This document shows, piece by piece, positions 484 through 27,852 of a stretch of 64,000 nt of DNA. Source of the stretch: Lachnospiraceae bacterium AF51-6-b8A (GTDB lineage: Bacteria > Bacillota > Clostridia > Lachnospirales > Lachnospiraceae); the NCBI GenBank assembly GCA_027682585.1, contig JAQCZH010000002.1, positions 248,001 through 312,000 of the forward strand, written 5' to 3'. The position numbers were made by a program, and so were the translations under genes. How positions within the stretch are numbered: the stretch's first letter is position 1; each line of letters begins with the position of its first letter. The notes beneath the pieces were generated by a model. It saw nothing but the letters and a program-made list of their open reading frames with translations, searched no databases and was not told the DNA's origin.

Positions 484-2154
484 ATGTCAAATACGAAAAG
501 AACAGGACAAACAGCCCTTTATGAGCGTTTAAGTAGAGATGATGAAATGCAGGGAGAAAGCAATTCCATCACCAATCAAAAACAGCTACTTGAAAGTTAT
601 GCGAAAAGAAACGGCTTTGTAAATATCTATCACTATACCGATGATGGAGTAAGCGGAACAACCTTTGATAGAGAGGGATTTCAGAAAATGATAAAAGCAG
701 TAGAAGAAAACAAAGTATCTACTGTGATAGTAAAAGATATGAGTAGGTTTGGCAGAGATTACCTTAAAGTAGGCTTTTACACCGAAATACTTTTCAAAGA
801 AAAGGGAGTAAGGTTTATCGCCATCAATAACGGAATAGATAGCGAAAAACAAGCAGAAAGCGACTTTACCCCATTTCTAAATATTATGAATGAATGGTAT
901 GCAAGAGATACCTCAAGAAAAATACAATCCATCTTTAGAGCAAGAATGGAAGAGGGTAAAAGAGTATCACCAAGCGTTCCATACGGCTATTATAGAAATC
1001 CTAAGAACAAACAGGAGTTACTTGTCGATAAAGAGAGTGCAAAGGTCGTAAAACGCATTTACAGGCTTGTAATAGAGGGATATGGAGTAACACATATAGC
1101 AGACATATTAACCAAAGATAAAGTCCTTATTCCGTCAGCCTATGCCCAAATACATTACCCCGAAAATAACCATAGCTCAAAGAAAAGAGGAATAGAAGAC
1201 CCGTATTTTTGGACACCGACCACAGTAGGTTATATCTTAGAAAAAAGAGAATATATGGGTCATACTGTACTTGGTAAAACAATATGCCTTGATTACAAAA
1301 CTAAGAAACGCAGAAAGGCAAAAGAAGATGAACTCATTATCTTCAAAAACACCCATAAAGCCATCATTGACGAAGAAACATGGAATAACGCTCAAAGGTT
1401 AAGAAAAACAGTGAGAAGAAGTCCAAAGTACGGAACAACCTCACACCCCTTTACAGGACTTTTAATCTGTGCAGATTGTGGAGGTAAATTAAGTTACAGA
1501 GAGCCGGCAGAATATAAAGAAAAGAAATATGATTGTGATTATTGCTTTGTATGTCAACATTACAGACACAGAAAAGGCTCTTGCAGTATGCACTACATCA
1601 AGGTAAAAACAGTGAATGAAATTCTCCTAAAATCAATCAAAGAAATCACAGATTTTGCAAAAGAAGAAAAGCAAGAATTTCTAAAAGTGATGAACAAATT
1701 ATCCGATGAAAAAAGGGAAGAAAAGTATCAAGATGATAAAACGAAATTAGAAAAATTATCTTCAAGAAATGAAGAACTAACAACCCTTATTACAAAGCTA
1801 TATGAAGACCATGCACTTGGAAAAATTCCCGCAAAACACTTTGATAGATTATTTAATATCTATGACACGGAGCAACAAGAATTAGAAAAGCAAATACAGT
1901 ATTTTGAAGATGAAATAGAAAGCTATCATCAGAGAAAAGTTGACACCGATAAATTCCTAAAGATGATAGAAAAATATACCGATATTGAAGAACTGACAGT
2001 CCCAATGATAAATGAGTATATAGAAAAAGTTGTAGTCCATGAAGCCACAGGGGGAAGAAAAGGAAAAGATAGAAAACAACAAGTTGATGTGTATTTTAAC
2101 TTTATAGGCAACTGTCAAGTACCACAAAAAGCCGATATAGAAAAAATGGCTTAA
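484..2154 (+). CDS. Large serine recombinase of E1 (TndX/TnpX-like)
   Basis: 556 residues, starting at an ATG with GGAGG 9 bases upstream. The N-terminal resolvase domain has the catalytic serine in YERLSRDDE (S17), then VKDMSRFGRD and an INNGID segment typical of large serine recombinases. A recombinase domain follows. A zinc-ribbon region at about 325-370 carries CADCGG and further CxxC and CxxxxH pairs. A coiled coil precedes the C-terminal DUF4368-like part (about 505-550, ending in VDVYFNFIGN). The enzyme should excise and integrate E1 by site-specific recombination. It shares domain layout with the E2 recombinase at 28729-30525 but is clearly divergent, in contrast to the near-identical relaxase cassettes. 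Confidence 0.93.
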   Translation: MSNTKRTGQTALYERLSRDDEMQGESNSITNQKQLLESYAKRNGFVNIYHYTDDGVSGTTFDREGFQKMIKAVEENKVSTVIVKDMSRFGRDYLKVGFYTEILFKEKGVRFIAINNGIDSEKQAESDFTPFLNIMNEWYARDTSRKIQSIFRARMEEGKRVSPSVPYGYYRNPKNKQELLVDKESAKVVKRIYRLVIEGYGVTHIADILTKDKVLIPSAYAQIHYPENNHSSKKRGIEDPYFWTPTTVGYILEKREYMGHTVLGKTICLDYKTKKRRKAKEDELIIFKNTHKAIIDEETWNNAQRLRKTVRRSPKYGTTSHPFTGLLICADCGGKLSYREPAEYKEKKYDCDYCFVCQHYRHRKGSCSMHYIKVKTVNEILLKSIKEITDFAKEEKQEFLKVMNKLSDEKREEKYQDDKTKLEKLSSRNEELTTLITKLYEDHALGKIPAKHFDRLFNIYDTEQQELEKQIQYFEDEIESYHQRKVDTDKFLKMIEKYTDIEELTVPMINEYIEKVVVHEATGGRKGKDRKQQVDVYFNFIGNCQVPQKADIEKMA

Positions 2155-2157
2155 AAA

Positions 2158-2166
2158 TGGTATAAT
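2158..2166 (+). promoter_or_regulatory. Extended -10 promoter before the hydrolase
   Basis: TGGTATAAT begins 4 bases after the recombinase stop codon and lies about 56 bases before the hydrolase ATG. The same AAAATGGTATAATATT context recurs at 5136-5151 before the NTF2-like gene, so it looks like a reused element promoter. No convincing -35 is seen, as is common for TG-extended promoters. Confidence 0.6.
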
Positions 2167-2222
2167 ATTGTTAATTATTTAGAGAGAAAAATTAGAATTT
2201 GTACACAGGATGGATTAGACTA

Positions 2223-2975
2223 ATGAATATACATGAATTTGGAAAAGGTAATGAACAAGCAATTCTGCTGATACATCCTTCTGTTGTAAGATGGGATTAT
2301 TTTGAACATTTAATTCCGCTTCTCAAAAACAAATATCATCTGATTATTCCGGCTCTTCCCGGATATGATTCTGAGGATGAAAGTGACTTTACAAGCATTG
2401 AGAAGATCGCTGCCGAATTGAATGAGTGGCTTCAGGCTGAAGAGATTGCCGAATTGTATGCAGTATATGGGTGCTCGATGGGCGGCTCCGTTGCTTTAAT
2501 GGTAACGCTTGGACAACTTATTCCAATCAGACACTGCATTATGGACGGAGGCATTACACCATATCAGCTACCATGGCTTGTCACACGCTTTATTGCCTTG
2601 AGAGACTATCTCATGGTGATGCTGGGCAGGACAGGTGGAGTGCGCTTGCTTGAGAAGGCTTTTGCTACCGATGAATATTCGAAGGAAGATCTTCAATATG
2701 TTGCAGATGTTTTGAAGTGCTCCAGTAGAAAAACGTTATGGAGAACTTTTGACTCATGCAACAACTATAAGATTCCACAGCCCATTCCGAAGGTCGATAC
2801 GCAAATGCATTACTGGTATGCCGATGGCGAAGAAAAGGAGCGAAAACTTGATATCGCCTACATGAATCAGCATTTTCCGCAAACAGAATTCAAGGTTTTG
2901 CCTAAACTGGGGCATGCAGGTCTTGTTTTACTGAAACCGGATTTATTTGTGACAATGATAAACGAATTGTTTTGA
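2223..2975 (+). CDS. Alpha/beta hydrolase, E1 cargo
   Basis: 250 residues with ATG 2223; a TTG at 2199 would add eight residues but has no ribosome binding site. LIHPSVVRWDYF resembles the HG-x oxyanion strand, and YGCSMGG is a GxSxG nucleophile elbow. PKLGHAGL near the C-terminus supplies the likely catalytic histidine. No signal peptide, so cytoplasmic. It sits where E2 carries TnpW and an EXLDI gene, so it is variable cargo. Its codon use is less AT-biased than its neighbours, suggesting a separate origin. The substrate cannot be predicted; esterase, lactonase or antibiotic-modifying roles are all possible. Confidence 0.8.
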   Translation: MNIHEFGKGNEQAILLIHPSVVRWDYFEHLIPLLKNKYHLIIPALPGYDSEDESDFTSIEKIAAELNEWLQAEEIAELYAVYGCSMGGSVALMVTLGQLIPIRHCIMDGGITPYQLPWLVTRFIALRDYLMVMLGRTGGVRLLEKAFATDEYSKEDLQYVADVLKCSSRKTLWRTFDSCNNYKIPQPIPKVDTQMHYWYADGEEKERKLDIAYMNQHFPQTEFKVLPKLGHAGLVLLKPDLFVTMINELF

Positions 2976-3040
2976 GACAGACAAATTGCAGTTTGTCGAA
3001 GTAAAACAATTAAATACAAGCTATAACATAGCAGTTCACG

Positions 3041-3072
3041 AAACAGTAAATCAAATCGGTTTACTGTTTTTT
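3041..3072 (+). terminator. Intrinsic terminator, left copy flanking the E1 cassette
   Basis: Stem AACAGTAAA / TTTACTGTT followed by TTTTTTC. Near-copies stand at 6282-6316, 24556-24595 and 27811-27852, so this hairpin marks both sides of the DUF3847-relaxase-NTF2-SAP cassette in both elements. Confidence 0.8.
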
Positions 3073-3103
3073 CTTTACTAAAAATCAGAAAGGAGAACAG
3101 AAA

Positions 3104-3424
3104 ATGAAAAATATAGATGAAAAAATCTTAATGGCAGAAGAGGAAATTAAGCAGTTACAAAACAAAAGAAAAAAACTCATCAGTCAGCAGAAACAGGAAG
3201 AACGAAAGAAAAGAGATAAAAGGCTTTATGAAAAAGGAGCAGTTTTTGAAAGTATCTTTAACGAAAGCAAGGATTTTACCAAAGATGAATTTTATCAGCT
3301 AATTACATTCCCAAATATCAAAGAAGCAATAAATGAAAAAATCCTAAAAATCATGGAGAAAAGAGAAAAAACGGAAGAAGAAAACATAGAAAAACAAGAG
3401 AAAGTAACGGAAACAGAGCAGTAG
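3104..3424 (+). CDS. DUF3847 family protein
   Basis: 106 residues with an AAAGGAG site before the ATG. The protein is highly charged and mostly helical. An N-terminal coiled coil (EEEIKQLQNKRKKLISQQKQ) leads into KRLYEKGAVFESIF and a short C-terminal charged tail. This is the DUF3847 pattern, found beside MobA/MobL relaxases in Firmicutes mobilizable elements. The function is not established; the position next to the relaxase and the coiled-coil character suggest a mobilization accessory, relaxosome or DNA-binding factor. A close copy is at 27459-27779. Confidence 0.8.
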   Translation: MKNIDEKILMAEEEIKQLQNKRKKLISQQKQEERKKRDKRLYEKGAVFESIFNESKDFTKDEFYQLITFPNIKEAINEKILKIMEKREKTEEENIEKQEKVTETEQ

Positions 3425-3625
3425 TCCCTTGTTTACAAGGGCGCATTTATACACCCTAAAGGGTGTGTGCGTTCTCCGAAGGCTCTTGCAGAGAGCATAT
3501 CAGCTAAAGCTGATACAGGGGAGCTACACTCCCCTACGGAAATAAATTTCCTACCCCTTGTGTACTTACCAAAAGAAACCGGATAAAAAACAATCCGATT
3601 TTTTTAGTAAGTCTTATCCATCGCC
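3424..3625 (+). ncRNA. Row of conserved hairpins before mobL: structured RNA leader or oriT
   Basis: A 200-base non-coding stretch with consecutive hairpins. They include CCCTTG/CAAGGG, ACACCC/GGGTGT, CTCT/AGAG, TATCAGC/GCTGATA, GGGGAG/CTCCCC and GGAAAT/ATTTCC. A nested structure follows: outer ACTTAC/GTAAGT enclosing CGGAT/ATCCG with a T-run. The E2 counterpart (27246-27468) keeps the helices while changing bases. ACACCC/GGGTGT becomes ACACCT/AGGTG, GGGGAG/CTCCCC becomes GGGGAA/TTCCCC, and ACTTAC/GTAAGT becomes ACTTCC/GGAAGT. The paired changes argue for selection on folding. It could be a cis-acting leader controlling relaxase expression or the oriT; the terminator-like last helix favours an attenuator. 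Confidence 0.65.
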
Positions 3626-3663
3626 ACTGTATCCACATCAGAAAAAGAGAGGAGGTTTTAGCT

Positions 3664-5124
3664 ATGGCGATATATCATCTTAGTATAAAGATTATCTCAA
3701 GAGGCAAAGGCAAAAGTGCGGTTGCAGCAGCTTCTTATCGAAGTGGCGAAAAGATAAAAAACGAATATGACGGCATAGTCCATGACTTTACAAGAAAAGG
3801 CGGAATAGCACATACAGAAATCCTATTACCACAAAACGCACCACAGGAATTTTCAGACAGAGGAACGCTATGGAACAGTGTAGAGAAAATAGAAAAAAGT
3901 AAAAACTCACAGCTTGCAAGAGAAATAGAAATCGCCTTACCCAAAGAATTAAACAGGGAAAAACAGATAGAACTTGTAAGAGAATATGTAAAAGAAAATT
4001 TTGTAAAAGTCGGTATGTGTGCCGATATTGCTTTGCACGATAAAAATGACGGGAATCCACACGCTCATATCCTATTAACTATAAGACCGTTAAATGAAGA
4101 TAAAACATGGGGAGCAAAATCAAAAAAGGAATATATCCTTGATGAAAACGGAGAAAAAGTAAAACTCAAAAATGGCAATTACAAAACAAGGAAAATAAAT
4201 ACAGTCGATTGGAACGAGCAAGACAAAGCGGAAGAGTGGCGAAAGACATGGGCAGATATTACAAACAAATATCTTGAAGAAAATAGCATACAGGAAAAAG
4301 TAGACCATCGTTCCTATCAAAGACAGGGCATAGAAGAAATACCGACCATTCATTTAGGAGTATCAGCAAGTCAAATGGAGAAGAAAGGTATAGCCACCGA
4401 CAGAGGAAATATCAATCGGGAAATCAGAAAACAGAATAGGCTATTACAAGAAATCAAGTTAAGAATAAAAGCCTTAATGAGATGGATAAGGGGAATTGGA
4501 AAAGAAGAAAAAGCAGAAACTGATAAACTCAAATCCACCCTCCCACCCAAAGAAAATTTGCTATCCGTTTTTGAAAATCTTATCCGTAAAAATGCAGATA
4601 ACCATAATACAGATTTAGAAAAATACATCGAAAGCTATCAATTCTTAAAAGAGAAAAACATTATTTCCTTATCTGAACTGAAAGAAAGTATAGTTACTTT
4701 AAGAGATAAGAATTACAAGACCACAAGAGCCATTAAAGATACTGAAAAGAAAATAGATGGTAAAGTACAGCTTATTGACCAAGCCGAGAAATATTTGAAG
4801 TATAAGGACATCTACAAAGCCTATACGAAATTAAAGAAAATAAAACAGGAAGATTTTTATAATGAGCATACGGCGGAGCTTATTCTATTTGAAAGTGCAA
4901 GGAAACATCTCAAAGAGCATTTAGGGGAAAGTAAGACCTTAAATATATCCAAATGGAAATCGGAACTTACCACTTTGAAGAAAGATAAAAAGAGCCTATA
5001 TAGTCAAATATTAGAAATACGAGAAGAAGTAGAGCATGCTGAAAAAGTTAAGACTTGTATTGAACAGTTACAGGAACATTCAAAGCAACTAACACAGGTA
5101 AAACGGAACGAGTTAGACCTATAA
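3664..5124 (+). CDS. mobL: MobA/MobL family relaxase (MobQ type)
   Basis: 486 residues; AGGAGG site before the ATG. The start MAIYHLSIKIISRGKGKSAV is the classic MobA/MobL opening, with a tyrosine in AASYRSGEK. The metal-binding histidine motif is NPHAHIL at residues 131-137, preceded by ALHDKNDG. After about residue 260 the protein is charged coiled coil, a probable partner-binding region. It should nick the element's oriT and pilot the strand during mobilization. Length matches small MobQ relaxases without a primase domain. The copy at 25751-27211 has the same length and is very similar. Confidence 0.93.
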   Translation: MAIYHLSIKIISRGKGKSAVAAASYRSGEKIKNEYDGIVHDFTRKGGIAHTEILLPQNAPQEFSDRGTLWNSVEKIEKSKNSQLAREIEIALPKELNREKQIELVREYVKENFVKVGMCADIALHDKNDGNPHAHILLTIRPLNEDKTWGAKSKKEYILDENGEKVKLKNGNYKTRKINTVDWNEQDKAEEWRKTWADITNKYLEENSIQEKVDHRSYQRQGIEEIPTIHLGVSASQMEKKGIATDRGNINREIRKQNRLLQEIKLRIKALMRWIRGIGKEEKAETDKLKSTLPPKENLLSVFENLIRKNADNHNTDLEKYIESYQFLKEKNIISLSELKESIVTLRDKNYKTTRAIKDTEKKIDGKVQLIDQAEKYLKYKDIYKAYTKLKKIKQEDFYNEHTAELILFESARKHLKEHLGESKTLNISKWKSELTTLKKDKKSLYSQILEIREEVEHAEKVKTCIEQLQEHSKQLTQVKRNELDL

Positions 5125-5139
5125 AATCAAGCGAAAAAA

Positions 5140-5148
5140 TGGTATAAT
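5140..5148 (+). promoter_or_regulatory. Extended -10 promoter before the NTF2-SAP pair
   Basis: TGGTATAAT lies 15 bases after the mobL stop and 37 bases before the NTF2 start. The E2 copy keeps it (25727-25735, minus strand). The two downstream genes can therefore be expressed independently of mobL. Confidence 0.65.
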
Positions 5149-5185
5149 ATTAGACAAGTATTTGATTTTGGAGGTGCTTAAATTC

Positions 5186-5605
5186 ATGGATGAAAGAGAG
5201 AAAATCATTCGTTTATGGTTTGATATGTGGCTTACACAACAAGACTTAGGAATAGATGATATTTTTTTGGATGATGTGATTTATATTGAGAGTTGGTGTC
5301 CTAAGTATGAAAATCGGCAAACAGTAAAGCACTGGTTTAATGAGTGGAATACAAGAGGAAAAGTTCTTGCGTGGGATATAAAGCAATTTTTTCATAAGGA
5401 TAATCAAACTATTGTAGAATGGCACTTCAAAAATAAAATGAATGAGGGGAAAGTTGAAGAATTTGACGGTATCTCTTTGATTGTTTGGACAGCCGATAAT
5501 AAGATAAAAGCGTTGAAAGAGTTTGGTTGTAATTGTAACAACTACAATCCTTACAAAGAGAGTGAAACACCATTATTTAGAGATGAAAAAGTAAATTGGT
5601 TTTGA
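5186..5605 (+). CDS. NTF2/SnoaL-like fold protein, first gene of a conserved pair
   Basis: 139 residues from the ATG at 5186, which has GGAGGT ten bases upstream; the in-frame TTG at 5162 has no site. The pattern fits a SnoaL-like NTF2 fold: an N-terminal helix (EREKIIRLWFDMWLTQ), a DVIYIESWCP strand, a helix QTVKHWFNEWNTRG, and beta strands with a TIVEWHF core. The C-terminus carries GCNCNNYNPY, an unusual cysteine-asparagine segment. NTF2 folds act as small-ligand enzymes or protein adaptors. No catalytic set is obvious. It is followed by the SAP/DUF6434 gene 15 bases later, and the pair recurs in E2 with about five amino-acid differences. The fold is inferred; the function is unknown. Confidence 0.65.
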   Translation: MDEREKIIRLWFDMWLTQQDLGIDDIFLDDVIYIESWCPKYENRQTVKHWFNEWNTRGKVLAWDIKQFFHKDNQTIVEWHFKNKMNEGKVEEFDGISLIVWTADNKIKALKEFGCNCNNYNPYKESETPLFRDEKVNWF

Positions 5606-5620
5606 GGAGATAAAATATTG

Positions 5621-6235
5621 ATGGAAAGTAGACCTGAGTTTGACAAAATTACATCGTTTGATGAATTTACTAAATACTATTGGTATCGTGAAGAACTTTC
5701 ACAGATATGCAAGTCATTAGGATTAGAATATAGAGGCACAAAACAGGAACTCAATTATATTATTGAGCAATACTTTAAGGGCAATTTGATTAAAAAATCA
5801 TCAATAAAAAATGAAAAGAAGCAAGTGGAAAATATTACTTTAGATACACCATTACTTGAATGTGGTTTTTCTTTTAATGCAAAGTTCAGAGAATATTTCG
5901 CTGTTTTAACAGGTATCTCACCATTTAAATTTACTGCTGATATGGCAACAGTTTGGAGAAAAGTAAAAAGAGAAAATGATTTGAGTTTTACAATTCAAGA
6001 TATGCTAAAAGTTTATTATGGGAAATCAGATTATGCAAAGTATGATAATTCGGTTTGTCAATGGAATCAATTTTTAAAGGATTTCTGTGCAGACGAAAAT
6101 AGTTGCAACTACTCAAACAAATTAAAAGTAGCTTCTATTCTTTGGAAAGAAGTCAGAAATTCAAGAAATGAAAAAATTTATTCAAAGAATCTTTTGACTG
6201 AATATGCCGATAAAATAAAAGAGTATTGCAAGTAG
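5621..6235 (+). CDS. SAP-like / DUF6434 protein, second gene of the pair
   Basis: 204 residues from ATG 5621 (GAGGAG upstream). The TTG at 5618 is equally spaced and is the only start left in the E2 copy, where ATG has become ATA. Residues ~10-50 (FTKYYWYREELSQICKSL, then LEYRGTKQELNYII) look like a SAP helix-turn-helix of the type that binds AT-rich DNA. The rest (about 75-180), with CGFSFNAKFREYF and FKFTADMATVWRKV, matches my recollection of DUF6434. It is probably a DNA-binding protein working with the NTF2-like neighbour. It has no membrane segments. The role is unknown: mobilization accessory or cargo defence/anti-defence are both possible. Confidence 0.6.
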   Translation: MESRPEFDKITSFDEFTKYYWYREELSQICKSLGLEYRGTKQELNYIIEQYFKGNLIKKSSIKNEKKQVENITLDTPLLECGFSFNAKFREYFAVLTGISPFKFTADMATVWRKVKRENDLSFTIQDMLKVYYGKSDYAKYDNSVCQWNQFLKDFCADENSCNYSNKLKVASILWKEVRNSRNEKIYSKNLLTEYADKIKEYCK

Positions 6236-18423: not shown

Positions 18424-18695
18424 GAAACAAAAAGACCCTCGTCCACTACGATACGTAGGGACAAGAGCCTGTACTCCTGCGGTGCCACCCTATTTGACGC
18501 GAACCCTTCGCGCCCACTCATGCATACGAACATATGCGGGATTTTGATCACGGAGATCCTGCTCCGTCTCACCTACTGAGTTTCCTGTTCGGCTCGCCCT
18601 CAGAAGCCCATTCAGAATACAATTCCTGTCGCCATCACACCATCGGCGGCTCTCTTGAAAGAATCGAGGCATTCCTACTATTTCTTCCTCACTGG
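18424..18695 (-). ncRNA. T-box riboswitch, tRNA-Trp specific
   Basis: Leader of trpB2. The T-box core GGGTGGCACCGCAGG is at 18476-18490. After it an inverted repeat (GGCTCTTGTCC...GGACGAGGGTC) followed by TTTTTG forms the terminator, alternative to the antiterminator. Stem I lies in about 18580-18695. Within GAATGGGC the specifier codon is UGG (complement of 18608-18610), which reads tRNA-Trp and agrees with the downstream gene. Confidence 0.92.
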
Positions 18696-18719
18696 TTTGT
18701 CGCTTACTATATCCTTTGG

Positions 18720-25750: not shown

Positions 25751-27211
25751 TTATAGGTCTAACTCGTTCTGCTTTACCTGTAATAGTTGCTTTTTTTGTT
25801 CCTGTAACTGCTCTATACAGGTCTTAACTTTTTCTGCCTGTTCTACTTTTTCTCTTATCTCTAATATTTGATTGTAAAGGCTCTTTTTCTCTTTCTTCAT
25901 AGTGGCAAGTTCTGATTTCCATTTACTGATGGCTAAGGTCTTACTTTCTCCTAAATGTTCTTTGAGATATTTCTTGGCACTTTCAAATAAAATGAGTTCT
26001 GCGTTATGCTCGTTATAAAAATCTTCCTGTCTGCTTCTCTTTGTCTTGGTATAGGCTTTATAGGTGTCCTTGTACTTCAAATATTTTTCTGATTGGTCGA
26101 TGAGTTGTGTTTTTTTATCAATCTTCTTTTCGGTATCTTTTAAGACTCTTGTGGTCTTGTAATTCTTATCTCGTAAATTAGTAATGCTTTCTTTTAATTG
26201 ATTGATACTTGTAATGTTTTTCTCTTTAAGTAACTGATAACTTTCAATATATTTTTCTAAGTCTGCATTATTCTTATCTGCATTTTTACGGATAAGATTT
26301 TCAAAGATTTCAAGCAGATTTTCTTTTGATGGGAGGGTGGACTTTATATTTTCATTTTCTACTTTTTCTTCTTTTCCTATTCCTCTTATCCAATTTAATA
26401 AAGCTTTTATTCTTCTTGAGATTTCTCTTAAAATCGCATTTTGATGTTTGATTTCTCGGTTGATATTTCCTCTGTCCGTCGCTATGCCTTTCTTCTCCAT
26501 TTGGGTTGCTGATACTCCTAAATGAATAGTTGGTATTTGTTCTATACCTTGTCTTTGATAAGAGCGGTGATCCACTTTCTCCTGTATGCTGTTTTCTTCA
26601 AGATATTTGTTTGTAATGTCTGCCCATGATTTTCGCCATTCTTCTGCTTTGTCTTGCTCGTTCCAATCCGTTGTATTTATTTTTCTTGTTTTGTAATTGC
26701 CATTTTTTAGTTTTACTTTTTCTCCGTTTTCATCAAGGATATATTTCTTTTTTGATTTTGCTCCCCATGTTTTATCTTCGTTTAGTGGTCGCATGGTAAG
26801 TAAGATATGACAATGTGGGTTTCCGTCATTTTTATCATGTAGAGCAATATCGGCACACATACCGACTTTTACAAAATTTTCTTTTACATAATCTCTTACA
26901 AGATTTATTTGTTTTTCTCGGTCTAATTCTTTAGGTAGGGCAACTTCAATTTCTCTTGCAAGCTGTGAGTTTTTACTTTTTTCTATTTCCTCAACACTAT
27001 TCCATAAAACAGAACGGTTTACAAATTTCTGTGGTGCATTTTGTGGTAAAAGAATTTCTGTATGGGCTATTCCTCCTTTTCTTGTAAAATCATGGACTAT
27101 ACCGTCATATTCGTTTTTTATCTTTTCGCCACTTCGATAGGCAGAAGCTGCTACTGCACTTTTGCCCTTGCCTCTTGAAATAATCTTTATGCAAAGATGA
27201 TATATCGCCAT
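25751..27211 (-). CDS. mobL: MobA/MobL family relaxase (E2 copy)
   Basis: 486 residues, same length as the E1 relaxase and very similar. It begins MAIYHLCIKIISRGKGKSAV, with NPHCHIL as the metal-binding motif: the middle alanine of HAH in E1 is cysteine here, while both histidines remain. Ribosome binding site AAAGGAGG. The coiled-coil C-terminus carries most of the substitutions. Two close relaxases in one chromosome could act on each other's oriT. Confidence 0.92.
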   Translation of the reverse strand: MAIYHLCIKIISRGKGKSAVAASAYRSGEKIKNEYDGIVHDFTRKGGIAHTEILLPQNAPQKFVNRSVLWNSVEEIEKSKNSQLAREIEVALPKELDREKQINLVRDYVKENFVKVGMCADIALHDKNDGNPHCHILLTMRPLNEDKTWGAKSKKKYILDENGEKVKLKNGNYKTRKINTTDWNEQDKAEEWRKSWADITNKYLEENSIQEKVDHRSYQRQGIEQIPTIHLGVSATQMEKKGIATDRGNINREIKHQNAILREISRRIKALLNWIRGIGKEEKVENENIKSTLPSKENLLEIFENLIRKNADKNNADLEKYIESYQLLKEKNITSINQLKESITNLRDKNYKTTRVLKDTEKKIDKKTQLIDQSEKYLKYKDTYKAYTKTKRSRQEDFYNEHNAELILFESAKKYLKEHLGESKTLAISKWKSELATMKKEKKSLYNQILEIREKVEQAEKVKTCIEQLQEQKKQLLQVKQNELDL

Positions 27212-27245: not shown

Positions 27246-27468
27246 GATGTGGCGATAGATAAGACTTCCTAAAAAAATCGGATTGCTTTTTATCCGATTT
27301 CTTTTGGGAAGTACACAAGGGGTAGGAAATCTATTTCCGTAGGGGAATGTAGTTCCCCTGTATCAGCGTTAGCTGATATGCCCTCTGCTAAGAGCCTTCG
27401 GAGAACGCACGCACCTGTTAAGGTGTATATGTGCGCCCTTGCCCTTGTAAACAAGGGACTATTCCTCT
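27246..27468 (-). ncRNA. E2 copy of the hairpin row before mobL
   Basis: Same order of hairpins as 3424-3625. It adds a 6-base repeat (CAAGGG duplicated) at the 5' side. Helices are kept by paired changes: GGGGAA/TTCCCC, ACTTCC/GGAAGT and ACACCT/AGGTG. The last hairpin TCGGAT/ATCCGA is followed by seven T, like a terminator 60-70 bases before the mobL start. Confidence 0.65.
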
Positions 27469-27779
27469 ATCTCTGTTTCCTCATCTTCTTTTTCTGTATT
27501 TTCTACTTCTGTTTCTTCTCTACTTTCTATGATTTTTAGTATTTTGATATTGGCTTCTTCTTTACGAATTAGAGATGTGACGAGCTGATAAAATTCATCT
27601 TTGGTTAGATTTTTGCTTTCAGTAAAGATACTTTCAAAGACTGCTCCTTTTTCATATATCCTTTTGTCTCTCTTTTTTCTTTTTTCCTGTTTCTGCTGAC
27701 TGATGAGTTTTTTTCTTTTGTTTTGTAACTGCTTAATTTCTTCATCTGCCATTAAGATTTTTTCTTCTATATTTTTCAT
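27459..27779 (-). CDS. DUF3847 family protein (E2 copy)
   Basis: 106 residues from ATG 27779; the longer frame to 27812 has no site. N-terminal part is nearly identical to 3104-3424 (EEKILMADEEIKQLQNKRKK); the C-terminal 40 residues diverge and are rich in glutamate. Predicted coiled coil. It is the first gene of the shared cassette, directly after the flanking terminator. Confidence 0.78.
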   Translation of the reverse strand: MKNIEEKILMADEEIKQLQNKRKKLISQQKQEKRKKRDKRIYEKGAVFESIFTESKNLTKDEFYQLVTSLIRKEEANIKILKIIESREETEVENTEKEDEETEIEE

Positions 27780-27810
27780 TTTCTCGTTTCCTCTCTTTCT
27801 ATTTTTTAGC

Positions 27811-27852
27811 AAAGAAAAAACAGTAAACCTTTTTTTGATTTACTGTTTTTAT
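27811..27852 (-). terminator. Intrinsic terminator upstream of the E2 cassette
   Basis: On the minus strand AAAACAGTAAA / TTTACTGTTTT followed by TTC. Fourth copy of the element hairpin; in E2 it separates the EXLDI gene from the cassette. Confidence 0.78.

Follow-up and report, generated by a model that had tools for sequence, protein, structure and literature searches.

The locus analysed here can be compared with several described transfer systems. Transfer origins (oriT) of the MOBQ type (RSF1010/pIP501) combine the core TAAGTGCGCCCT, an inverted repeat 5' of nic, and a MobA/MobL relaxase. A nic consensus is given as NWACCNNTAAGTGCGCCCTYNN in a description of MOBQ (PMC3832669) and as NcgtNtaAgtGCGCcCTta in one of Gram-positive systems (PMC10333310), and TraA of pIP501, an IncQ-type relaxase, is described as cleaving at GpC and as binding half repeats beside its nic (PMC4981023). 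The element canT of Tn916 is described as a multi-hairpin element that is linked to terminators and to the expression of transfer genes, and that is active as a 452-bp fragment (PMC11658703). In the description of pLS20, conAn1/conAn2 consist of a small protein gene and an RNA element located before transfer genes with internal terminators (PMC8955417). The single-strand origin sso1 of ICEBs1 has been described as orientation-specific and probably structure-dependent (PMC4595007).

Two element copies, E1 and E2, within a window of 64,000 nt (the whole stretch of DNA that was analysed) each carry a row of hairpins between a DUF3847 gene and mobL. Both resemble the MOBQ type in the core (with one mismatch), the inverted repeat 5' of nic, and the MobA/MobL relaxase. 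Unlike that type as described, E1 has a stem that reaches the predicted nick and a second stem that starts right after it, and a mini-hairpin and a module of about 100 nt, termed M, follow; this comparison with RSF1010 and pIP501 is one of description and consensus only. M resembles canT in being a multi-hairpin element of a Gram-positive mobile element that is often found near terminators and transfer genes, but differs from it in its size, in adjoining an oriT or lying inside a tra operon, and in having a role that is only predicted. The order of a small protein gene (DUF3847) and then an RNA element (M) in E1 is like that of conAn in pLS20, as judged by description, whereas the DUF3847 gene follows M in another record, L138. 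Of the features taken as marks of a canT/conAn2-like element, a conserved structure with compensatory changes (a criterion of our own) and a constant orientation to the transfer genes were both found. M also shares with sso1, again by description, the conserved hairpins of a transferable element, but its relation to the predicted T-strand varies between IMEs and ICEs. The row is here read as a predicted MOBQ oriT (3426-3480) and a separate module M (3515-3614) with two lineage-specific hairpins between them.

The hairpin row in E1 and E2

The first-pass annotation had placed a row of hairpins in E1 and, inverted, in E2, and had reported three helices in which both partners differ between the copies. 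Both arrays (Table 1) were aligned and both strands were folded. The row was found in each copy, and all three double changes were confirmed (GGGGAG/CTCCCC to GGGGAA/TTCCCC, ACACCC/GGGTG to ACACCT/AGGTG, and ACTTAC/GTAAGT to ACTTCC/GGAAGT). Arrays that resemble these two are referred to below as E-type. The product of mobL is a MobA/MobL relaxase of 486 aa, plasmid relatives of the gene carry the annotation mobQ, and a serine recombinase gene is located close to each array.

The same annotation knew of no named RNA family for the row, which agrees with Rfam 15 for the window and one ICE copy. At the gathering score, the array was without a match in the window, where only a T-box and two tRNAs were recognized elsewhere, and at a relaxed E-value only chance-level matches were obtained in E1 and in the ICE locus L139. 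M is without a family in Rfam, and a name elsewhere may exist. The T-box leader lies at 18454-18701 on the minus strand and scored 93.1 bits against a family cut-off of 93. Phage records that were searched with the E1 row gave no match. In a search of mostly open-access papers, the strings of the M core and of a conserved box described below returned no relevant literature, only 13-base matches on unrelated subjects, and "DUF3847" as a literature search term returned nothing.

Table 1. Features of the E1 and E2 copies, with positions in the window.
Feature	Position	Strand	Basis and remarks
Array of E1	3424-3625		alignment, folds of both strands
DUF3847 gene, E1	3104..3424	+	Pfam PF12958, E 1.7e-13; directly 5' of the hairpin row
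Hairpin CCCTTG-TAAA-CAAGGG, predicted T-strand 5' end	3426..3441	-	fold, alignment
Predicted MOBQ nic region, TATAAATGCG followed by CCCTTG	3436..3451	-	MOBQ consensus; nick predicted between 3442 and 3441
Nic-proximal hairpin CGCAC-ACACCC-TTTA-GGGTGT-ATAA-ATGCG	3442..3471	-	fold, alignment, pair counts; 3' arm reaches the predicted nick
Mini-hairpin TTC-TCC-GAA	3472..3480	.	inside the conserved box TGCGTTCTCCGAAGGCTC (3468-3485)
Hairpin H3, GCTCTT-GCA-GAGAGC	3482..3496	.	fold, alignment; lineage-dependent
Hairpin H4, TATCAGC-TAAA-GCTGATA	3498..3515	.	fold, alignment; lineage-dependent
Module M, E1 (H5, H6, linker TACCCCTTGTGT, H7)	3515..3614	+	covariance model R1, E 1.4e-6
H5, AGGGGAG-CTACA-CTCCCCT	3517..3535	.	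pair counts, covariation
H6, GGAAA-TAAA-TTTCC	3538..3551	.	covariation; most stem bases replaced in other lineages
H7, closed by ACTTAC/GTAAGT	3564..3612	.	pair counts, covariation; E-type inner part and T-run terminator-like
mobL, E1, MobA/MobL (MOBQ) relaxase	3664..5124	+	PF03389, E 1.5e-101
mobL, E2	25751..27211	-	PF03389, E 1.1e-100
Array of E2	27246-27468		inverted; alignment, folds of both strands
Module M, E2	27262..27361	-	covariance model R1, E 2e-6
Predicted oriT, E2	27406..27457	+	window + strand as predicted T-strand; predicted nick at 27435/27436
DUF3847 gene, E2	27459..27812	-	PF12958, E 1.2e-12

The predicted MOBQ origin of transfer

The left third of the row is very probably a MOBQ oriT, as predicted from the consensus, the architecture, and the relaxase family, and would be a further member of that known kind. 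A relaxase of the MOBQ family, the nic consensus, and an inverted repeat 5' of nic on the nicked strand were all found. E1 (TAAATGCGCCCT) and E2 (TATGTGCGCCCT) each have one mismatch to the MOBQ core. On the minus strand of E1, TATAAATGCG and CCCTTG stand between two hairpins, and the sequence across the predicted nick reads CGCACACACCCTTTAGGGTGTATAAATGCG before and CCCTTGTAAACAAGGG after it. The nick was placed between the two stems on account of the GpC cleavage that is described for TraA of pIP501. MobL would thus nick the minus strand between ATGCG and CCCTT (GTGCG and CCCTT in most relatives), and from this position the minus strand is the predicted T-strand, with mobL entering last. The MOBQ nic consensus, the hairpin, and the relaxase family support, as a prediction, the earlier remark that an oriT would be expected in this place, as far as the left third is concerned.

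A scan of genomes for MobL gave at least 80 loci and at least 54 sequences with both nic and the conserved box TGCGTTCTCCGAAGGCTC, at least 49 of them distinct. Among the MobL loci listed, 73 nic-like sites were found, 38 of which were exact to the core, 33 had one mismatch, and 2 had two. Places with the box yielded 66 distinct arrays after two masked ones (L015 and L037) were dropped, and 56 of these were E-type, including E1 and E2. Each pair of the hairpin at the predicted T-strand 5' end was retained in 55-56 of the 56 E-type arrays, in which the inner pair of the nic-proximal hairpin was CG in 30, TA in 25, and CA in one. The 3' arm of the latter hairpin is GTGCG in most relatives and pairs with CGCAC; the outer stem of E1, with the arm ATGCG, has four Watson-Crick pairs and one A-C on the minus strand (T-G on the plus strand). 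The closed nic-proximal hairpin is retained in other loci despite quite different inner stems. In E2, the CAAGGG arm that adjoins nic is doubled (window 27436-27447, CAAGGGCAAGGGCGC), and a similar repeat is present in L043 (CAAGGGTACAAGGGCGC). In the MobL loci L065, L066, and L069-L075, a nic-like site lies on the other strand.

The mini-hairpin had been overlooked in the earlier annotation, and its three pairs covary between lineages. A perfect three-pair mini-hairpin was present at the exact offset in 65 of 106 distinct nic-like segments (the 65 being mostly E-type, and the 106 including matches that are not oriT) and in none of the other 41, compared with 0-4 of the 106 at six neighbouring offsets. 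Seven triplets were observed in its stems, one of which (GGC) is probably due to chance. The pattern of the surrounding box was matched in one class by 10 of 391 genomes and in one family by 28 of 120, counts that include the centre genomes as known carriers, and the reversed pattern, used as a control, matched no genome of the same sets. Of 107 redundant places with the box, 102 have a MOBQ nic upstream. In three cases (L095 = L106, L096 = L107, and L125), the box stands without a MOBQ nic beside a different inverted repeat, and the neighbour in L106 is a Mob_Pre relaxase gene that is directed away from the box. The assumption that the box belongs to MOBQ was rejected on these grounds, and the Mob_Pre gene suggests that the box is common to more than one relaxase family. 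In L106 (8340-8640, and also in L107 and L125), the box and an AGGGG...ACACTCCCCT stretch adjoin this other repeat; no match was obtained when the L106 oriT region was used as a BLAST query against plasmids. The left third provides a predicted transfer origin for a group of mobilizable elements that are found in many Firmicutes and in a few other genomes.

Module M, a conserved folded element

M is a conserved folded element. The covariance model R1 has 107 positions and rests on nine sequences, seven of the GC-type and two from ICEs, with none of the E-type; over 73 chosen sources it gave 95 matches, among them M of E1 and of E2. Genomes of two orders were also searched, with matches in 5 of 146 (including the centre, a known carrier) and in 11 of 245. 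Fourteen further sources were searched, 12 of which had no match, including L141, L142, L083, and pMG2200 (1-32000), and the two matches obtained were the copy of L214 and its antisense. Removal of 20 antisense rows left 71 distinct sense rows, of which 67 were used, as the alignment of the other four (L190, L191, L176, and L175) to the model looked broken. Array or M copies that look degraded or truncated were noted in L113, L115, L118, L123, L176, and L191.

Parsimony on a FastTree tree of the 67 sequences gave 59 double changes from one Watson-Crick pair to another, and paired cells amounted to 91.6%. The corresponding number of double changes was 0-5 when partners were slid by 1-3 columns, 5.4 on average (maximum 16) when partner columns were permuted 100 times, and 2.9 on average (maximum 8) in 50 unconstrained GTR+G simulations on the same tree; because the alignment was fitted to the structure, these counts favour the structure, which the simulations leave uncorrected. 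With the 20 antisense rows still included, a separate count found 35 of 36 pairs changed on both sides, the covariation score was 0.463 vs. 0.157 for shuffled and 0.06-0.12 for slid columns, and paired cells reached 96.8% in H5, 97.0% in H6, and 88.3% in H7. The linkers are conserved as well. In the 56 E-type arrays, the H5 pair was GC in 47 and AT in 9, whereas the H7 pair was less strict (CG in 42, AT in 7, C-T in 5, and A-G in 2) and was broken in 7 of the 56. Conserved folding, which had been proposed from two copies, therefore extends well beyond them. That proposal had been made to depend on covariation in further homologs, which was found, and on related sequence in other elements with DUF3847 and mobL, of which at least one, the DUF3847-mobQ element L141, had no R1 match, which counts against the proposal to a small degree. 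R1 supplies a covariance model for a structured element outside Rfam that links mobilizable elements with Tn1549-like ICEs. A looser pattern of the M core was discarded, since it matched 10 of 245 genomes and its reversed control matched 4; its hits in L143, L144, and L150 look like chance and were kept out of the counts, and L156, first obtained with this pattern, was recovered by R1 (as L182).

The data on M lean towards folding of the strand complementary to mobL sense. In the 67 sequences, single changes led from Watson-Crick pairs to A-C in 26.9 events and to G-T in 14.9, the corresponding numbers among cluster representatives being 14 and 3, and the complement folded more stably in 66 of the 67 sequences with both RNA and DNA parameters. 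An excess of wobble pairs in favour of the transcribed strand, which we had chosen as a further mark of an antiterminator RNA, was not found in M; a mild excess was observed for the other strand. This is taken as a lean and not as proof, because the sequences share ancestry and part of the effect comes from conserved loops. The left part of the E-type arrays gave a mixed picture, with A-C in the nic hairpin of 20 of 56 arrays (which favours the minus strand) and T-G at two pairs of H3 in 32 and 55 of the 56 (which favours the plus strand).

Position of M and its possible role

In 65 of the 71 distinct M sequences, nic was located 63-110 nt upstream of M. The six without nic were three ICE rows, the L181 copy with a degenerate nic, and the degraded L191 and L176. 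For the 49 of 71 sequences with a recognized downstream mobL, M and this gene are about 32-57 nt or about 443-1160 nt apart. A search of both strands recognized a mobL no more than 2.5 kb from M in 41 of 71; each of these genes lay downstream of M and shared its direction, and no other arrangement was seen. In the remaining 30, mobL was unrecognized or the flanking sequence was absent. M remains close to nic also in loci in which M and mobL are set apart by cargo. M of the IMEs thus keeps to nic, and M of the ICEs sits in a tra operon.

The ICE copies of M without nic, including a diverged one (L208), have the sense orientation in the tra operon and are flanked by a VirD4-like gene (CD1115 family) and by Maff2/VirB6. 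In the annotated copies, M reads along the tra genes; the Monoglobus copy has an extra small ORF between the VirD4-like gene and M. We take this operon to be Tn1549-like from its gene order (CD1115, CD1112, and CD1110 families annotated). Some Tn1549-like ICEs thus have M in this place, whereas the vanB element of pMG2200 was without M in 1-32000, as searched with R1. Both kinds of M co-occur in genome G006 and in record L138, where a MOBQ element (553-6107) with its own M is located about 5 kb from the ICE M and has the order nic, M, DUF3847, and mobQ, unlike E1. An ICE M was also observed at 100% identity in MT839717.1 (3354-3519), an unannotated 5.7-kb record named "Bacteriophage sp." Among plasmids, the GC-rich relative L002 retrieved two records in which only its right-hand part matched, and both are ICE copies in the tra-operon position given above.

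Alignment of the ICE region upstream of mobC with that of pMG2200 revealed that a conserved CGTAGCAAGCATAGG adjoins the inverted repeat. On this basis, nic of the ICE is expected on the L214 minus strand, pointing away from mobC. The ICE would then transfer the strand that is sense for the tra genes, in contrast to the IMEs. This assignment of nic relies on conservation and on similarity to the MOBP type. Given this assignment, the polarity of M relative to the predicted T-strand is opposite in the IMEs and the ICE, which argues against a role of M on the T-strand only. The Monoglobus ICE contains mobC, another relaxase, and another oriT.

A terminator-like site was present in 50 of 71 distinct regions upstream of mobL (with nic within 1.7 kb), compared with 71 of 623 control ORFs. 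The other 21 had no terminator at the cut-off, and at least 10 of them carry M (L008, L011, L033, L041, L051, L126, L131, L136, L156, and L179, of which L126 and L179 are just below the cut-off); none was found in the second copy of L181 or in L187. In 9 loci with cargo between M and mobL, mobL is preceded at 44-81 nt by an unrelated terminator, and in the ICE copies a terminator follows M at about 170-200 nt. A tra-gene terminator at the same place was seen by eye in the vanB element of pMG2200, which has no M there. Around the end of M, terminator-like sites were found in 40 of 70 on the sense strand vs. 34 of 70 on the opposite strand, and in 2 of 66 in an upstream control. Clustering of mobL at 65% gave three mostly-M clusters with a terminator and five M-free clusters without (p 0.018), in a table that is fragile because some clusters are mixed, the largest with M in 36 of 41 and a terminator in 28 of 41; the M-free L083/L141 have, by eye, a terminator whose long loop exceeds the limit of the script. 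The motif AACTGAATACC recurs just 5' of terminator-like hairpins upstream of mob/tra genes (L002:4426, L138:656, and L139:6241).

We tentatively prefer the reading that M works on transcription elongation in a manner like antitermination, although we rate it somewhat short of even. As part of the mob or tra RNA under synthesis, M would alter elongation in cis: a polymerase that has copied M would read through the terminator ahead of mobL (in the ICE, the one ahead of the VirB6 block), and the relaxase would not be made from stray transcription. If so, relaxase expression that is silent and then coupled to transfer would be accounted for. The polarity of M and the frequent terminators before mobL favour this reading, for which canT of Tn916 and conAn of pLS20 serve as precedents. 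On the other hand, the A-C excess and the more stable fold of the complement, the small strand bias of terminators near M together with the M loci that lack a terminator, the closeness of M to nic despite cargo, and the terminator of pMG2200 without M all argue against it. Furthermore, a TATAAT-like sequence seen by eye after M in GC-type loci implies that M need not be in the mobL transcript of these elements.

M could alternatively be a single-strand origin or promoter on the T-strand, with hairpins that recruit RNA polymerase or primase in the recipient and perhaps start the complementary strand and mobL transcription there. The spacing from M to nic is tighter than that from M to mobL, and better folding and more wobbles are seen on the minus strand, the predicted T-strand of the IMEs; that sso1 is described as orientation-specific and probably structure-dependent also speaks for this reading. 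The minus strand of the GC-type H5 loop also contains TAGCGT, which we take to be the CS-6 motif of ssoA; the full motif is absent from the E-type and ICE loops. A constant orientation to the transferred strand, as in an sso, was not found if the ICE nic is assigned correctly, since the predicted ICE T-strand is the tra sense strand and the better-folding strand of M is then not transferred; the better-folding strand would be the transferred one in the IMEs but not in the ICE. This opposite polarity lowered our estimate, and we consider a single-strand origin somewhat unlikely.

The first-pass annotation also noted that the final helix with its T-run looks like an attenuator. This is supported only in part: most E-type arrays have, in H7, a T-run and a terminator-like score; other lineages keep the H7 helix without a T-run, and several have a separate terminator further downstream of M. 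A plain leader attenuator or insulator, in which the last hairpin alone has a function, as a terminator before mobL, and the others are oriT or idle, would agree with the terminators being commoner before mobL than before control ORFs. However, the T-run is not conserved while the ACTT/AAGT helix is retained in nearly all lineages, which makes an attenuator alone too simple; H5 and H6 are paired at least as well as H7, the linkers are conserved, and M itself lies upstream of the separate terminators, so that this explanation appears unlikely. The least probable explanation is that all hairpins are double-stranded sites for relaxosome proteins (inverted repeats for MobL or DUF3847), as the position of the array next to nic and the half repeats bound by TraA of pIP501 might suggest, because M also occurs in an operon without nic and much of the stem sequence in H6 and H7 changes with pairing kept, which a sequence-reading protein should not allow.

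An extension of the preferred elongation reading is that M is a regulatory RNA common to the helper conjugative element (in its tra operon) and to the mobilizable elements that depend on it, by which these would eavesdrop at the RNA level and make relaxase only during antitermination of the helper's tra genes. We consider this unlikely, although the two kinds of M are present together in G006 and in L138; if true, the passengers bear the helper's own read-through element just after their oriT, and no transcription activator is involved. In the GC-type loci L108-L110, the gene for MobL precedes genes for a CHC2 zinc-finger primase-like protein and for a VapE-like protein, which suggests that these elements may replicate.
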